DNA of 32,965 nt from Tepidanaerobacter sp. DTU063 (lineage in GTDB: Bacteria > Bacillota > Thermosediminibacteria > Thermosediminibacterales > Tepidanaerobacteraceae). The notes beneath the pieces were generated by a model, which did no database searches, had not been told where the DNA came from, and was given only the letters and a program-made list of their open reading frames with translations. The stretch is from NCBI GenBank assembly GCA_001512695.1, contig LFSJ01000123.1, positions 1 to 32,965 on the forward strand, in the 5' to 3' direction. Position numbers and translations under genes: made by a program. Positions 2,451-32,611 of the stretch are shown here, piece after piece (position 1 is the stretch's first letter; every line of letters begins with the position of its first letter).

Positions 2451-2472
2451 AATATAAAATAAACAATATTTT

Positions 2473-2703
2473 AACAGGTGCCGAAAGGTTAAAAGGGAAT
2501 CAGGTGAAAATCCTGAGCGGTCCCGCCACTGTAATCGGGGATGAACTGCTGTACCACTGGGAAACCGGGAAGGGGCAGGGAATATGAACCGAGAGCCAGG
2601 AAACCTGCCTGTTAGAGAAGTACTGCTAGCCTTCGGAAGAAAGGAGGGTACTGTATTGGCTGAGAACCCGATTTTCCTGTAAGGAAGCGGGTTGTTTTAA
2701 TTT
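2473..2703 (+). ncRNA. Cobalamin (adenosylcobalamin) riboswitch with terminator expression platform
   Basis: The aptamer is closed by a P1 helix, AACAGG (2473-2478) with CCTGTT (2608-2613). It contains the conserved GCCACTG (2525-2531) and the B12 box GCCAGGAAACCTGCC (2595-2609), hallmarks of this class. Downstream, AACCCG (2665-2670) pairs with CGGGTT (2688-2693) with an inner TTCCT/AGGAA extension, followed by a T-rich tract: an intrinsic terminator. High coenzyme B12 should favour the terminator and switch off btuF, btuC and cobU. The known logic of the class and the gene content agree. Confidence 0.95.
2665..2703 (+). terminator. Riboswitch-controlled terminator before btuF
   Basis: Six-base-pair outer stem AACCCG/CGGGTT plus an inner TTCCT/AGGAA stem, then GTTTTAATTT. 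It lies 32 bases before the btuF start and is the expression platform of the cobalamin riboswitch. Confidence 0.85.
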
Positions 2704-26637: not shown

Positions 26638-26934
26638 TCAGTCCTCCTTTGATTTAATCCTATATTTATCAAACTCTCTGATTTGCACCTGCTTGCTTAG
26701 GTGCATCAGGGTTTTAAAGAACTCTATCAGTTCTGCTTCAAAACCCTTATTTTTCAATTTGGCAAGGTTTTTCTCTATGACCTCGGCTTCTCTCTTTTCG
26801 TTGAGTATCGGCAATCCGTTTTTCATCTTGTAGGAAGCAATCTTTAAAGCAATACTCATTCGCATTTCAAAAAGGTCCACCAGGCAGCTGTCAATATTAT
26901 CTATCTGCACTCTTAAACCCTCTAAACAGTCCAT
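26638..26934 (-). CDS. Chorismate mutase (AroQ-fold, monofunctional)
   Basis: Converts chorismate to prephenate, the branch point to Phe and Tyr. The product of 98 residues is an all-helical CM_2 domain: LRVQIDNIDSCLVDLFEMRM with the catalytic Arg, then IALKIASYKMKNGLPILNEK with the active-site Lys, REAEVIEKN, and a third helix FEAELIEFFKTLMHLSKQVQ. There is no fused dehydratase, dehydrogenase or DAHP synthase domain. ATG 26934 has AAAGGG nine bases upstream and lies inside the end of aroC (38-base overlap); ATG 26952 is an alternative. Paired with tyrA in the same operon, it commits chorismate to tyrosine; no prephenate dehydratase gene is in the window. Confidence 0.9.
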   Translation of the reverse strand: MDCLEGLRVQIDNIDSCLVDLFEMRMSIALKIASYKMKNGLPILNEKREAEVIEKNLAKLKNKGFEAELIEFFKTLMHLSKQVQIREFDKYRIKSKED

Positions 26935-28021
26935 GCTCACCATCCCTTTCAAAGAGTAAATCCAGAATTACCACTGCCGCTGCAGCTTCAACAGCAGGAA
27001 TAGCCCTCGGCACAATGCAGGGATCGTGCCTGCCCTTTACCATTATTGTAGTCTCCTGCATCTTCTGTATATCAACGGTTCCCTGGCTAATGCCAATCGA
27101 TGGGGTAGGCTTTATTGCAACCCTGAAGAGCAGGGGCATTCCTGTGGTAATGCCTCCTAGGATGCCGCCATTGTGGTTGGTGGAAGTTACAATTCTATCG
27201 CCTTCCAACACGAACTCATCATTTGCCTGGGAGCCTCTAAGCCTTGTAATGTCAAAACCTGATCCAAACTCTATACCTTTCACCGCCGGAATGGAAAATA
27301 GGGCATGGGCCATTCGGCTTTCAACACCGTCAAAAAAGGGGGAACCCAGGCCAGGCTCAAGGTTAATAACGATGGTCTCAATAATCCCACCGACGGAATC
27401 CTTTTCCTTTTTTGCATCAAGTATCAGCTCTTTCATCTTTTGGCCTGCCAGCGCATCCAGCACCGGAAAATCCGAATTTATTAGTTCCTTCAAGGCTTCT
27501 TCATCGATATTTATGCTGTCAAAGCTTTCATCACACACATCATGAATGCTCTTTATGTGACTTGCTATTATTATATTTTGCATCTTTAAAACCTGTTTTG
27601 CCACGGCCCCTGCAAAAACTAGGGGAGCCGTAAGCCTGCCGGAAAAATGACCCCCACCCCTGTAGTCATTAAAACCTCCATATTTGACAAAACCCGTGTA
27701 GTCAGCATGACCGGGCCTTGGAAGCAGTTTGAGTTCTTCATAATCCCGTGACTTAGTATCTCTATTAAAAATAACGGCGCTGAGGGGGCTGCCGGTAGTC
27801 CTGCCACAAAAATACCCGCTCAGTATTTCAAAGTCATCTTTTTCCTTTCTAGGCGTCGAAAATATGCTCTTTCCCGGCTGCCTTCTTGAAAGTTCCCCTT
27901 TTATGAAATCCATATCAAGCTCTATGCCGGCCGGCAAGCCGTCCAAGACTACACCAATGGCCTTGCCGTGTGACTCACCAAAAATAGAGATTTTAAACTT
28001 ATTGCCGAAGATGGAACTCAT
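26897..28021 (-). CDS. aroC: Chorismate synthase
   Basis: Makes chorismate from 5-enolpyruvylshikimate-3-phosphate using reduced FMN. The 374-residue product has the three family signatures: FKISIFGESHGKAIGVVLDG, LPRPGHADYTGFVKYGGFND followed by YRGGGHFSGR, and KGRHDPCIVPRAIPAVEAAA. ATG 28021 has GGAGG nine bases upstream. The gene starts 23 bases inside the end of aroA and ends 38 bases inside the chorismate mutase gene, so translation along the operon is tightly coupled. Confidence 0.97.
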   Translation of the reverse strand: MSSIFGNKFKISIFGESHGKAIGVVLDGLPAGIELDMDFIKGELSRRQPGKSIFSTPRKEKDDFEILSGYFCGRTTGSPLSAVIFNRDTKSRDYEELKLLPRPGHADYTGFVKYGGFNDYRGGGHFSGRLTAPLVFAGAVAKQVLKMQNIIIASHIKSIHDVCDESFDSINIDEEALKELINSDFPVLDALAGQKMKELILDAKKEKDSVGGIIETIVINLEPGLGSPFFDGVESRMAHALFSIPAVKGIEFGSGFDITRLRGSQANDEFVLEGDRIVTSTNHNGGILGGITTGMPLLFRVAIKPTPSIGISQGTVDIQKMQETTIMVKGRHDPCIVPRAIPAVEAAAAVVILDLLFERDGEHGLFRGFKSADR

Positions 28022-29300
28022 CGATTATACCTCCGAGCTTTCTAAAGTCATTCCAAAAATTGGGGTAGGATTTACCCACGGAATCACTGTTATTGATAAT
28101 AACGGGTTTTTTGCACCTAAGTGCCGCCACAGCGAGGGCCATGGCTATTCTGTGGTCATTCCAACTGTCTACAGCGCCGCCTTCCAGCATGTCCCGGCCG
28201 TAAATCTCAAGGCCATCGGGAGTCTCTGCAATCTTAGCACCAAGTTTGGATAGTTCCGTAGAAATTGCCTTTAAGCGATCCGATTCCTTTATCCTAAGTC
28301 TCCCGGCATTGATTATTCTCGTGGTGCCCTTGCTTAAAGCTCCGAGGACCGCCAAGGGGGGAACTAGATCCGGGCACTGGGACGCATCAATGGTTATGCC
28401 GAAAGTTTTAGATGAACGAGCAGTGACTGAGTTGTCCTTTACAACTAAATCAGCGCCCATTTCGGTCAAAATATCGATGATACATTTGTCACCCTGAAGT
28501 GAACCCGATTCCAGGTCATTGCATGTTATATTTCCGTTTAAAGTGCCGGCTACCAGCCCAAAAGCTGCCTGAGAGTAATCACCCTCAACACGACACCTCG
28601 CAGCCTTATATGATTGCTTTCCCTTTACCTTAAAGTATTCGTAATTGTGATTCTCGACCTCTATTGAAAAATCCTTTATGGTATCTATGGTAAGGTCTAT
28701 GTATCCCTTTGATTCAATAGGGGTAGTTATTATTATTTCCGAATCGCCGTCAAGGAGGGGCAGTGAAAATAGTAGTCCTGAGATGAATTGTGAACTTACA
28801 TTGCCCTTAACCTTAAATACGCCTGGCCTTAGTTTGCCTGAAAAAGTTATGGGAAGTCCTCCCGTCCTTGTATAATAGATTATGCCTTGACTTTCAAAAA
28901 TCCTGCAATATTCATCGAGGGGCCTTTGAGAAAGTCTGCCCCTTCCCGTAAATGTAATTTGTTTTCCGTCAAGCAAGGCAATCGGTATCAAAAATCTAAG
29001 GGTGGAGCCCGATTCGAAGCAGTCTACTGTTTGCTGCACAATTTCAGGATAGCCTTTGCCCTTAATGATTACATCATAGGTCTCAAGATTCGAATTGGCC
29101 TTGACATAACTTACTTTTGCTCCGAGGGCTTTGATGCCTTTTAAAGTAGCCAAAATATCATCGGAAAAATCAATGTTGCTGATGATGCTATCTCCGGCGG
29201 CAAGGGATGCGCAGATCAACATTCGATGGCTTATACTTTTGGATGGGGGAACTGTTATCCGGCCCTTTAATCCAGATGGAGTAATTTTTACGCATTTCAT
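27999..29300 (-). CDS. aroA: 3-phosphoshikimate 1-carboxyvinyltransferase (EPSP synthase)
   Basis: Transfers enolpyruvyl from PEP to shikimate-3-phosphate. The 433-residue product starts with the substrate motif GRITVPPSKSISHRMLICAS, then CFESGSTLRFLIPIALLDGK, GRLSQRPLDEYCR, KVKGNVSSQFISGLLFSLPL, RVEGDYSQAAFGL, LRIKESDRLKAISTELSKLG and SWNDHRIAMALAVAALR. The PEP-binding loop reads SGSTLRF instead of the NAGTAMR of class I enzymes. This variant loop is common in clostridial enzymes; its effect on inhibitor binding cannot be read from sequence. The ATG is 18 bases after the aroB stop, with CGAGGTG upstream. Confidence 0.96.
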   Translation of the reverse strand: MKCVKITPSGLKGRITVPPSKSISHRMLICASLAAGDSIISNIDFSDDILATLKGIKALGAKVSYVKANSNLETYDVIIKGKGYPEIVQQTVDCFESGSTLRFLIPIALLDGKQITFTGRGRLSQRPLDEYCRIFESQGIIYYTRTGGLPITFSGKLRPGVFKVKGNVSSQFISGLLFSLPLLDGDSEIIITTPIESKGYIDLTIDTIKDFSIEVENHNYEYFKVKGKQSYKAARCRVEGDYSQAAFGLVAGTLNGNITCNDLESGSLQGDKCIIDILTEMGADLVVKDNSVTARSSKTFGITIDASQCPDLVPPLAVLGALSKGTTRIINAGRLRIKESDRLKAISTELSKLGAKIAETPDGLEIYGRDMLEGGAVDSWNDHRIAMALAVAALRCKKPVIINNSDSVGKSYPNFWNDFRKLGGIIDEFHLRQ

Positions 29301-29318
29301 AAAAACACCTCGTAATTT

Positions 29319-30380
29319 TTATAGGAAAAACCTTGGAATTTCATCTTTATTGATATTTTTTATAAAGCCGTCACCTATTGAATTCAACAATACAATATCA
29401 ATGCTGTCGCCTTTATTTTTTTTATCCATGGCAATGACTTCAACAATCTCGGCTGCATTTCCTGCAGGCATCTCATAGGGGAGGCCGTACTTTGATAGTA
29501 CTTCTTTAAGCCTTTGACTGGTTCCGGGCTCGGTTAAACCCATGTCTTCACTGTTTTTGGTTACCCGATACATGCCTACTGCTACCGCTTCACCATGGGA
29601 GTATTTGGCATAATGATAATATTTTTCTATGGCATGGCCCAGGGTGTGGCCGAAGTTTAGCATCATTCTTGCTCCTTGGTCGGTTTCGTCCTCTTCAACA
29701 AATTTTTTCTTGATACTTAAACACTTGAAGATAATAGTTTCTATATTGTTAAGGAGCTCGTTTTTGTCAAACCCCGTAAGCTCTTCAAATAGCTGCCGAT
29801 CCTTGATACAACCGTACTTAATCACTTCAGCCATGCCATTACTGAATTCTCTCGCGTCAAGGGTATCCAAAAAGTCCGGGTCAATGAAAACTGCCTCGGG
29901 ATGGTAAAAACTGCCCACTAAATTTTTGCCTTGGGGCAGGTCAACTGCTACCTTGCCGCCTATACTGCTGTCAACCTGGGCAATCAGGGAAGTGGGAACC
30001 TGTACGTAAGGCATACCCCTCAAAAAGGATGACGCAGCAAATCCTCCCAAATCACCTACCACCCCGCCGCCTAAAGCTATGATGATGTCCCTGCGGGTAA
30101 TTCTTGACTTAACCAATCCTTCGAAAACATCGGCAAGGGTCGCCAGGGTTTTACTTTTTTCGCCTGGTTCGATGGCAATCACATCAGTTTCAAATCCCGC
30201 CGAATTTAGGACATTTAAGACCTGAGCTCCATAAATGCGACTTAGGTTTTTATCGGTAATTATTGCTACTCTTTTTGCAGAAGATAATCTTCTCAAAGAC
30301 TTGCCCAATTCCTTAATTATGCCTCGCTTGATATACACCGGATAATCCTTGTTTTTTAAATTTACCTGGAGAGTCTGCAT
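29319..30380 (-). CDS. aroB: 3-dehydroquinate synthase
   Basis: Second step of the pathway: cyclises DAHP to 3-dehydroquinate with NAD+ and a divalent metal. The 353-residue product has VAIITDKNLSRIYG, EPGEKSKTLATLADVFEGLV, IIALGGGVVGDLGGFAASSF, YVQVPTSLIAQVDSSIGGKV, NLVGSFYHPEAVFIDPDFL, the metal ligands in EVIKYG and MLNFGHTLGHAIEKY, and SHGEAVAVGM. ATG 30380 has GGAGGAAC (minus strand) 9-11 bases upstream, so the gene starts 68 bases inside tyrA. That is the longest overlap in this operon. Confidence 0.97.
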   Translation of the reverse strand: MQTLQVNLKNKDYPVYIKRGIIKELGKSLRRLSSAKRVAIITDKNLSRIYGAQVLNVLNSAGFETDVIAIEPGEKSKTLATLADVFEGLVKSRITRRDIIIALGGGVVGDLGGFAASSFLRGMPYVQVPTSLIAQVDSSIGGKVAVDLPQGKNLVGSFYHPEAVFIDPDFLDTLDAREFSNGMAEVIKYGCIKDRQLFEELTGFDKNELLNNIETIIFKCLSIKKKFVEEDETDQGARMMLNFGHTLGHAIEKYYHYAKYSHGEAVAVGMYRVTKNSEDMGLTEPGTSQRLKEVLSKYGLPYEMPAGNAAEIVEVIAMDKKNKGDSIDIVLLNSIGDGFIKNINKDEIPRFFL

Positions 30381-31233
30381 TTAAATCAAGTTCCTCCTTC
30401 AATTTCTGGGCCTTGGAGAAAAGCTCCCTTAAAGACACTGAATCGTTGCCGAGAATGGCTTTTTTGAATTCTTGCAGGTTTGATAGGAATATGTCAAGAT
30501 GTTTGACTACATAGCTGGCGTTTTCAAGCAGCAGCTCCGTCCATAAATCCCCGTTTATCCTGGCTACCCTTGTGACGTCCCGAAAGCTGCCGCCCGTGTA
30601 GATCGATGTATTTTCTATCATGGGATTTAGCACCAGGGATAAAGCCATGATGTGGGGCAGGTGACTGGTGAAGGCCACCATATCATCGTGCTGTTCAGGG
30701 CCCATCTCAACTACATTGGCAAAACCGATTTTAAAAAGCAGGTCTTTTAATAATGAGACATTAGCCCTTTTGCTTTTTGCCGAAGGAGTCATTATATAGT
30801 CGGCACCCTTGAAGATTTTTTCCGAAGCAAATTGAATTCCTTGAAATTCGTTTCCGGCCATGGGGTGGCCGCCGATAAAATCAATGTCATCCCTTAAAAT
30901 TGGAGATATCTCTCTGAAAATTAATCCTTTAAGCCCGGTGACATCGGTGACAATGGCGCCGGTTTTGAAGTGTCTCATGTTTTCCCTGATAAATTTCACT
31001 GCCGCTTTCGGATAGATGCAGACGAAGACCAAATCGGATTCTTGCAGCGGCTCTTTAGAGTCAGTGAAGCCTTTATTTATGATCCCGGACGCCATTGCCA
31101 AGTCCAGCGCATCTCTGTCAATATCAACTCCCCAAAGCTGTTTGGTTTTTATTTTTTTGCTAATCGCCATTGCCAGGGAGCCGCCTATGAGTCCAAGGCC
31201 CACTACTGTTATATTAAAGTCCGAGCAATCCAT
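30313..31233 (-). CDS. tyrA: Prephenate dehydrogenase
   Basis: Oxidises prephenate to 4-hydroxyphenylpyruvate, the last committed step to tyrosine. The 306-residue product has the Rossmann motif ITVVGLGLIGGSLAMAISKK, the acidic end of strand 2 in WGVDID, and the catalytic segments DFIGGHPMAGNEFQGIQFAS, DDMVAFTSHLPHIMALSLVL and FRDVTRVARINGDLWTELLL. It ends without the C-terminal ACT domain that many Bacillus enzymes carry, so feedback control by tyrosine at this enzyme is uncertain. The last 22 residues overlap aroB. ATG 31233 has AGGAGG upstream; aroF ends 12 bases before. Confidence 0.95.
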   Translation of the reverse strand: MDCSDFNITVVGLGLIGGSLAMAISKKIKTKQLWGVDIDRDALDLAMASGIINKGFTDSKEPLQESDLVFVCIYPKAAVKFIRENMRHFKTGAIVTDVTGLKGLIFREISPILRDDIDFIGGHPMAGNEFQGIQFASEKIFKGADYIMTPSAKSKRANVSLLKDLLFKIGFANVVEMGPEQHDDMVAFTSHLPHIMALSLVLNPMIENTSIYTGGSFRDVTRVARINGDLWTELLLENASYVVKHLDIFLSNLQEFKKAILGNDSVSLRELFSKAQKLKEELDLNADSPGKFKKQGLSGVYQARHN

Positions 31234-31244
31234 TTAAAAGCCTC

Positions 31245-32258
31245 CTAAAGCTTGCGATTGTGTATTCGAGCTATTTCCCTGACTCTGTCCATTAAGCGTT
31301 TGAAGTTTTCAGGTGTAACGGATTGATTGCCGTCACATAGGGCATTCTTAGGGTCATTGTGCACCTCTATCATTAACCCATCCGCTCCTACCGCTACTGC
31401 TGCCATGGCCAGGGGTTCAACCATCCACCAGATTCCCGAAGCATGACTGGGATCTACGATCACTGGAAGGTGGCTTAATTTCTTGATTACGGGCACGGCA
31501 CTTATGTCAAGGGTGTTTCTGGTGTAAGTTTCAAAGGTCCTGATGCCCCTCTCGCACAGAATTACATTTTCGTTTCCACCTGCCAGTATATATTCGGCTG
31601 CAGTTAAAAACTCTTCGATTGTGGCTGAAAGACCCCGCTTTAAAAGCACCGGCTTTCTCGTTTGACCGACTGCTTTTAAAAGGTCGAAATTCTGCATGTT
31701 TCTAGCGCCAATTTGGATGATGTCAACATCAGCTTCATACAGTTCAAGCTTATCCACTGACATCAATTCAACCACAATGGGCAATTTGGTCACTTCCTTG
31801 GCATACTTTAAATACTCAAGGCCTTCTTCCTTCAAGCCCTGGAAGCTGTATGGCGAAGTCCTGGGTTTAAAGGCACCGCCTCTTAAAAAACCTGCACCCG
31901 CCTTTTTTACTTCAATGGCCACCTCGGTTATCTGGGACTTGCTTTCTACCGAGCATGGACCTGCAATGATGGCCAGCTTCTCTCCGCCGATAGAGAGGCC
32001 GTTTACCGATATCACCGAGTTTTCGGGATGAAAGAGTCGGCTCACCCTTTTGTACGGTTCCTGGACGTGGATGACCTTTTCAACACCTTCCATCAGCTTA
32101 AAGCTTTCGGCATCCACGCTGCTTGTGTCACCGATCATGCCAATAATGTGATAGTTTACGCCTATAGCCTCACAAACTTCAAGGCCCAAGTCCAGGATTT
32201 TGTCTTTGACAGCATCTGCATCCCGGGCTTCACCATCTGTTCGCATTACAATTATCAT
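31245..32258 (-). CDS. aroF: 3-deoxy-7-phosphoheptulonate (DAHP) synthase, type I-beta with N-terminal regulatory domain
   Basis: First enzyme of the shikimate pathway: PEP plus erythrose-4-phosphate to DAHP. The 337-residue product has a ferredoxin-like N-terminal domain (residues 1-70, MIIVMRTDGEARDADAV), typical of allosteric forms, then the barrel with AIIAGPCSVESKSQI, GAGFLRGGAFKPRTSPYSFQ, IIQIGARNMQNFDLLKAVGQ, KPVLLKRGLSATIEEFLTAA, LCERGIRTFE and LPVIVDPSHASG. ATG 32258 has GGAGGTG six bases upstream; the frame is open to 32291, but that is next to the terminator. It is the first gene after the Phe/Tyr leader, so expression of the whole operon is set here. Confidence 0.96.
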   Translation of the reverse strand: MIIVMRTDGEARDADAVKDKILDLGLEVCEAIGVNYHIIGMIGDTSSVDAESFKLMEGVEKVIHVQEPYKRVSRLFHPENSVISVNGLSIGGEKLAIIAGPCSVESKSQITEVAIEVKKAGAGFLRGGAFKPRTSPYSFQGLKEEGLEYLKYAKEVTKLPIVVELMSVDKLELYEADVDIIQIGARNMQNFDLLKAVGQTRKPVLLKRGLSATIEEFLTAAEYILAGGNENVILCERGIRTFETYTRNTLDISAVPVIKKLSHLPVIVDPSHASGIWWMVEPLAMAAVAVGADGLMIEVHNDPKNALCDGNQSVTPENFKRLMDRVREIARIHNRKL

Positions 32259-32294: not shown

Positions 32295-32328
32295 AAAAAA
32301 GGGAATCTCCTCCAGTGAGATTCCCTTT
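32295..32328 (-). terminator. Attenuator terminator before aroF
   Basis: On the minus strand AAAGGGAATCTC (32328-32317) pairs with GAGATTCCCTTT (32309-32298), a 12-base-pair stem with a seven-base loop ending in six T's. It sits between the leader peptide stop and aroF, about 37 bases before the aroF start. Confidence 0.93.
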
Positions 32329-32380
32329 AGGTATACCTATACTAATGAGTTTTGGATAATTATGCGGTACTAAGGGTAAT
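32320..32380 (-). promoter_or_regulatory. Predicted antiterminator pairing in the aro leader
   Basis: The leader segment ATTACCCTTAG (32380-32370) can pair with CTAAAGGGAAT (32330-32320), giving ten base pairs with one bulged A on each side. The second segment includes most of the 5' arm of the terminator, so the two structures exclude each other. The peptide stop codon (32362-32360) lies eight bases past the first segment, so a ribosome at the stop would mask it and let the terminator form. Pairing was done by eye, without energies. Confidence 0.6.
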
Positions 32381-32539
32381 AATCCTCTTAATACCTCTAT
32401 CATTGAATCTGTTATAAACCTCACCGGAAGGAGGGCCTATTTTATTGCAGAACAAACAACCGCTAAAATAAAAGTAAAAATAGTAGCGGCTAAAGTTAAA
32501 GTATTGTCCTGCAAAGTTCCTTCCTGTGAGATTTTGCAT
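32360..32539 (-). CDS. Phe/Tyr-rich leader peptide of the aro operon
   Basis: A 59-residue open reading frame between the operon promoter and the attenuator. ATG 32539 has a strong GGAGGT (32553-32548) eight bases upstream, so it should be well translated. Residues 9-25 (FAGQYFNFSRYYFYFYF) contain 11 Phe/Tyr residues, seven of them consecutive (19-25), and there is no Trp. A CLFC pair and the polar tail GPPSGEVYNRFND, then RGIKRIITLSTA, follow. A hairpin (32484-32490 with 32459-32465) loops out the run of Tyr and Phe codons. Shortage of charged tRNA-Phe or tRNA-Tyr should stall the ribosome here. The tail brings the stop codon next to the antiterminator. The role is inferred from this architecture. 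Confidence 0.85.
   Translation of the reverse strand: MQNLTGRNFAGQYFNFSRYYFYFYFSGCLFCNKIGPPSGEVYNRFNDRGIKRIITLSTA
32459..32490 (-). promoter_or_regulatory. Candidate pause hairpin around the Tyr/Phe codon run
   Basis: On the minus strand GCCGCTA (32490-32484) pairs with TAGCGGT (32465-32459), seven base pairs including one G-U. The 18-base loop is made of the Tyr and Phe codons 20-25. It is positioned like the 1:2 pause stem of classical attenuators. Confidence 0.5.
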
Positions 32540-32582
32540 GTGCTTTGACCTCCGGGCAAGTTGTGTTTTTGGTATTTTTAAC

Positions 32583-32611
32583 ATTATATTTAATCGGGTA
32601 TTCTATGTCAA
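32583..32611 (-). promoter_or_regulatory. Consensus sigma-A promoter of the aro operon
   Basis: On the minus strand a perfect TTGACA (32611-32606), exactly 17 bases, and a perfect TATAAT (32588-32583). Transcription would start near 32576, about 37 bases before the leader peptide start. Confidence 0.92.

Follow-up and report, generated by a model that had tools for sequence, protein, structure and literature searches.

The window (the whole analysed stretch of DNA, 32,965 nucleotides of contig LFSJ01000123.1 of Tepidanaerobacter sp. DTU063) carries on its minus strand an operon whose first gene encodes DAHP synthase, preceded by a leader that comprises a promoter, a short open reading frame (ORF) and an intrinsic terminator. 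The operon behind the leader makes chorismate, which leads to Tyr and Phe, and the codons of the putative sensor in the leader ORF are those of the same two amino acids. In the direction of transcription, the features are as follows:

32583 to 32611, minus strand: promoter, TTGACA and TATAAT with a 17-nt spacer, matching the consensus at 12 of 12 positions
32549 to 32553, minus strand: GGAGG ribosome-binding site of the leader ORF, seen in the sequence and invariant in eight of eight leaders
32360 to 32539, minus strand: leader peptide ORF of 59 codons plus stop, with homologous ORFs elsewhere
32518 to 32534, minus strand: segment 1, AAATCTCAC.GGAAGGA, codons 2–8, the 5′ arm of the conserved 1:2 helix
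32505 to 32514, minus strand: 5′ arm of the upper 1:2 helix, TTGCAGGACA, pairing with 32454–32445
32465 to 32503, minus strand: putative sensor, codons 13–25, YFNFSRYYFYFYF, with 10 Phe/Tyr in 13 codons
32458 to 32491, minus strand: inner hairpin, AGCCGCTA ... TAGCGGTT, indicated by covariation, with most Phe/Tyr codons in its loop
32445 to 32454, minus strand: 3′ arm of the upper 1:2 helix, TGTTCTGCAA, pairing with 32514–32505
32416 to 32433, minus strand: segment 2, CTCCTTCCGGTGAGGTTT, about codons 36–42, the putative switch segment, on the grounds of pairing, recoding and covariation
32363 to 32413, minus strand: tail, codons 43–59, including codons 53–57 (32383–32369), not conserved
32309 to 32322, minus strand: segment 3, AATCTCACTGGAGG, 5′ arm and loop of the terminator, by sequence and pairing a near-copy of segment 1
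32298 to 32328, minus strand: hairpin of the intrinsic terminator, segments 3:4, with a T run behind it, kept in eight of eight leaders
31245 to 32258, minus strand: DAHP synthase (3-deoxy-7-phosphoheptulonate synthase), first gene of the operon (NCBIfam NF006421, E 2.8e-152)
26897 to 31233, minus strand: prephenate dehydrogenase, aroB, aroA and aroC, the downstream genes of the operon (NCBIfam matches)

The leader of the window combines a promoter-proximal ORF and its ribosome-binding site, a run of Phe/Tyr codons, a terminator ahead of the first gene and mutually exclusive helices, all of which characterise attenuators. In agreement with a preliminary description of this DNA, the peptide is 59 residues long (ORF 32539–32360, minus strand, with its GGAGG site), some 100 nt separate the end of the Phe/Tyr cluster from the stop codon, and a CxxC motif (CLFC, residues 28–31) and the segment GPPSGEVYNRFND (residues 35–47) are both present.

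In relatives of the same family and order, T-boxes precede the same DAHP synthase gene, and the genome itself has 13 T-boxes above the cut-off at other sites, from which it might be supposed that the leader is a T-box or another riboswitch responding to a tRNA or a metabolite. An Rfam search of the leader, including one at a relaxed threshold, returned neither a T-box nor any credible family, however, and the probability of this reading is negligible. Loci L045, L047, L048 and L050, as well as relatives at the level of the order, possess a T-box before the same gene and no leader peptide. Elsewhere in the window, a cobalamin riboswitch was detected (2459–2626, plus strand, 111.9 bits).

A six-frame search of relatives showed that seven further genomes of the family (L002–L008) possess this leader. 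Their peptides have 48–56 residues, and each of them retains the ribosome-binding site and Phe/Tyr run, the terminator and the DAHP synthase gene, with a similar promoter at the equivalent place in all seven. A covariance model of the 1:2 hairpin (R1) matched the eight same-family leaders only, and more distant members were therefore sought by means of a peptide profile. This identified 12 further leaders in eight additional families, each with DAHP synthase downstream, while weaker profile matches (L090–L093, L095 and L097), which had no DAHP synthase within the locus, were dropped. Homologues of the leader ORF are thus present in seven other same-family genomes and in eight more Firmicutes families, bringing the total to 20 leaders from nine Firmicutes families. 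All of the distant leaders have 45–60 codons, a central Phe/Tyr run and, within the ORF, a segment complementary to the terminator arm. The plasmid collection contained no match.

Segments 1 and 3 are near-copies of each other and segment 2 is therefore able to pair with either. In the window, the duplex energies are −24.3 kcal/mol for 1:2, −26.0 kcal/mol for 2:3 and −17.2 kcal/mol for the terminator, and the competing duplexes of the eight family leaders range from −15 to −25 kcal/mol (1:2) and from −13 to −26 kcal/mol (2:3). Near-identity of segments 1 and 3 is also what would be expected of a repeated binding site, and one might envisage a trans-acting protein or small RNA that binds the AATCTCAC motif repeated in the two segments, with translation being incidental. 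Such a factor is extremely unlikely: in other families segment 3 changes jointly with segment 2 (AATGAG:CTCATT, CATGAG:CTCATG), as pairing partners do, and in every member the ORF is intact and has its Phe/Tyr run. The core pairs of the 2:3 helix are GTGAG:CTCAC in the family of the window and CTAATGAG:CTCATTAG in most distant leaders, with CATGAG:CTCATG and TCTAAGAG:CTTTTAGA occurring in some.

The competing helices of the attenuator are conserved by several measures. The 1:2 hairpin and the terminator were recovered unprompted by RNAalifold; across the eight leaders, 97.2% of their cells are paired (97.5% in the upper 1:2 helix) and their covariation is 0.219 compared to 0.150 in shuffled alignments (0 of 500 shuffles as high). 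For the 2:3 helix, the 20 leaders from nine families, in 17 distinct rows, gave 87.1% paired cells, a covariation of 0.428 against 0.193 when shuffled (0/500) and double changes at six of ten pairs. The segments were anchored at the homologous SNE/SSE peptide position, except in four leaders (three distinct rows) where the anchors were chosen by eye because segment 2 there sits in a different reading frame. With these frame-shifted rows removed, pairing is 90.0% and covariation 0.368 against 0.201 (0/500), while the number of doubly changed pairs, at 3 versus 2.9 in shuffles, is no longer above expectation. The four leaders in which the frame of segment 2 differs are L069, L070, L083 and L086, and the complementarity persists in them. 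The inner hairpin also covaries (0.432 against 0.294 shuffled, 0/500, 12 distinct leaders); its arms consist of the conserved Ser and Gly codons on either side of the sensor, with the Phe/Tyr codons looped out. An unsupervised duplex search returned the same segment 2 in most leaders and a different one in L083, L086 and L089; it yielded no significant 1:2 helix for L070, L083, L086, L088 and L089, and its 1:2 or 2:3 calls for these five are weak or ambiguous. From these sequence comparisons, the assignment of the switch segment to codons 36–42 in the middle of the ORF, where it would pair with either segment 1 or the 5′ arm of the terminator, is well supported.

This assignment corrects the location of the switch. 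The preliminary description had placed an antiterminator at codons 53–57, with the stop codon adjoining it, such that a ribosome finishing the peptide would cover it and permit termination. The kind of device that it proposed is retained, namely a Phe/Tyr leader attenuator in which the terminator may lose its 5′ arm to a translated segment downstream of the sensor, but the segment concerned is that of codons 36–42. Some complementarity of codons 53–57 to the 5′ arm of the terminator and the stretch preceding it does exist, although it does not clearly exceed chance: with flanks included, the best duplex is gapped, has an energy of −12.2 kcal/mol and is equalled by 163 of 2000 shuffles, compared to −27.2 kcal/mol and one shuffle in 2000 for codons 36–42 against the identical arm. 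In all seven close homologues the Phe/Tyr run is present and the codon 53–57 segment is missing, an observation that the preliminary description had itself named beforehand as counting against its proposal. In L002 and L003, which belong to the genus of the window, the DNA aligned with the last codons of the window is noncoding and lies past the stop, while in L004 an indel shifts the tail into another reading frame. The codon 53–57 pairs are formed in 68% of cells of the alignment (A1), which is rich in gaps at this point, and two of them occur in the window row only.

The stop codon of the window lies 57 nt past the GAG core of segment 2, this distance being 10–54 nt in relatives, and proximity of the stop to the antiterminator is for that reason not a design feature. 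Nor does a finishing ribosome exert the proposed effect, as masked folding (described below) with a ribosome on codons 49–59 or at the stop alters the probability of the terminator by at most 0.05 relative to ribosome-free RNA. The distance from the stop to the terminator is only moderately variable among the 20 leaders (28–65 nt, mean 43), implying that the position of the stop may matter loosely; in view of this and of the partial complementarity in the window, set against the shuffles, the homologues, the alignment and the folding, it is highly improbable that the tail serves to place an antiterminator (codons 53–57) and the stop where a ribosome finishing translation would cover the former.

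Comparison of substitution rates separates constraint on the RNA from constraint on the peptide, bearing in mind that the sites are few and that the six leader pairs used are mutually non-independent. Codons 1–42 have a pS of 0.15 and a pN of 0.07, while DAHP synthase in the same six pairs has a pS of 0.53–0.70 and a pN of 0.06–0.10; codons 13–27 have the lowest pN of all regions (0.02), and the tail from codon 43 onwards has a pooled pS of 0.45 and pN of 0.40. These values indicate that codons 1–42 are held at the RNA level, the sensor additionally at the amino acid level and the tail at neither. Synonymous constraint is also apparent from recoding of segment 2 in the window, where none of 1000 synonymous versions reached the observed 1:2 pairing and only one of 1000 did so for 2:3; in relatives, up to 9% of versions reach the observed pairing.

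An additional function of the peptide had been suggested should the tail and its CxxC prove to be conserved at the amino acid level. The tail evolves freely, as the above values attest, and the first Cys is replaced by Tyr in all seven relatives, which carry GYLFC or GYWFC; since this Cys is unique to the window and the tail is unconstrained, no sign of a peptide function is discernible. Strong conservation of the sensor residues and the recurrence of the pattern FS..YYFYFS.GY across several families could nonetheless be taken to mean that the peptide itself acts beyond codon counting, through nascent-chain arrest or as a small protein with its own task. This is very unlikely, as the near-invariant Ser and Gly codons belong to the covarying arms of the inner hairpin, the tail shows no constraint, the CxxC is private to the window leader and four leaders translate segment 2 in a different frame. 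There is a correspondingly small chance that the aromatic peptide stalls the ribosome itself, as an arrest peptide tuned by Phe/Tyr, in which case the leader would read more than starvation at the level of codons.

It is thus highly probable that the leader is a ribosome-mediated transcription attenuator which senses charged tRNA-Phe and tRNA-Tyr and which very probably turns the aromatic operon on when Phe or Tyr is scarce. The sequences show the anatomy, its conservation, the mutually exclusive complementarity, the covariation and the synonymous constraint; how ribosomes stall and queue, when transcription terminates and in which direction the operon responds we infer as follows. Where no ribosome is present, or where one has traversed segment 2 and departed, the 1:2 hairpin would sequester segment 2 and the 3:4 hairpin would terminate transcription. 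Under Phe/Tyr shortage, the ribosome would stall on the codons between segments 1 and 2 and thereby block 1:2, probably with a second ribosome queued over segment 1; the freed segment 2 would then capture the nascent segment 3, allowing the polymerase to read into the DAHP synthase operon.

Masked folding, in which the ribosome footprint is masked and the RNA upstream and downstream of it is assumed not to pair mutually, is consistent with this course. The probability of the window terminator is 0.92 in free RNA, 0.00–0.07 with the A site at codons 5–25, and at least 0.92 from codon 34 onwards. Before segment 4 is made, the 2:3 helix of the window has a probability of 1.00 with the ribosome on codons 13–31; with the ribosome on codons 13–22, it forms with probabilities of 0.54–1.00 in every leader except L089, and in free RNA it is rare (0.00–0.19) except in L068 (0.64). 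With the ribosome at the stop its probability is zero, a value built into the first folding variant and obtained in a second variant without that assumption, except in L007 (0.56). When the RNA flanking the stalled ribosome is allowed to pair, 1:2 survives and the terminator retains a probability of 0.75–0.92 with the ribosome on the sensor; the model therefore needs pairing across the ribosome to be sterically excluded or segment 1 to be covered by a queued ribosome, and the spacing of the leader would permit the latter. Exclusion of pairing across the stalled ribosome is the weakest step of the proposed mechanism. In most relatives, the terminator is favoured at full equilibrium for almost every position of the ribosome, which implies that the switch must be kinetic there.

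The E. coli trp, phe, his, leu and thr attenuators resemble this leader in having a short ORF with a run of end-product codons, RNA helices that exclude each other and an intrinsic terminator before biosynthetic genes. The peptides differ in length (45–60 residues here, 14–28 in the five E. coli leaders examined), and, unlike in the E. coli leaders, segment 2 is entirely translated and is separated from segment 1 by the sensor codons. In a crude scan of the E. coli leaders, which probably missed the known segment of trpL, the stop is at or before the antiterminator segment in pheL and hisL, while in leuL and thrL that segment lies partly or wholly within the ORF. The translated segment 2 is therefore unusual in extent and, in view of leuL and thrL, not new in principle.

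A search of the open literature for a prior description yielded only one close system, the uORFC-13-1 motif upstream of aroF in Acholeplasma, a Phe-containing uORF with a terminator for which attenuation has been proposed (PMC8632094). Compared by description only, this motif likewise has a uORF with Phe codons, a promoter, a ribosome-binding site and a terminator before a DAHP synthase gene, but it has been described only from Acholeplasma and environmental sequences and its text contains no competing-helix model (PMC8632094). Histidine leader-peptide attenuators are known in Firmicutes (PMC2965389, PMC9413887); again by description only, they resemble the present family in that leader-peptide attenuation replaces T-boxes, and differ in the amino acid and the genes concerned (PMC2965389, PMC9413887). 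The T-box leaders of relatives (RF00230) precede the same DAHP synthase gene and also sense tRNA charging, but they do so by direct tRNA binding and have no leader peptide. As far as the open literature shows, the leader family is undescribed and of an ordinary device type, with uORFC-13-1 as its nearest known counterpart by description.

The Phe/Tyr attenuator family spans at least nine Firmicutes families, in a group in which the same gene is otherwise under T-boxes, and within one family the control of a single operon has been swapped between tRNA sensing and translation sensing. The near-identity of segments 1 and 3 and the wholly translated switch segment render the competing-helix model easily testable by compensatory mutation.

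Further leaders and repeats were encountered in the course of this analysis. L042 (G039) has a 30-codon Phe/Tyr leader, MDKLIKMTTEYFYYFFSSNFFGWAFCVGSE, before DAHP synthase, with a terminator further on and an antiterminator candidate past the stop; it was excluded from the family counts and could be an attenuator of another or of a more canonical type, perhaps akin to uORFC-13-1. At L106 (G392:C1, about 880787–880629, minus strand), the DAHP synthase leader has a paralogue some 1.9 kb upstream of it, a second Phe/Tyr leader of 53 codons, MKVLSSLPMTIASVFTYFSWSFFSAGYFGYGEYNRDNGDMGIGKTAEPVFSGV, which has its own terminator and precedes the gene of an apparent ACT-domain protein. Tandem GGTAGGATGGTAGGA-type repeats with a period of about 8 bases precede DAHP synthase in L044, L057 and L062, and repeats of the same type are located near the ribosome-binding site upstream of DAHP synthase in L045, L047, L048 and L050. 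These repeats have no Rfam match of their own, and it is possible that they constitute an operator or an RNA-binding repeat.
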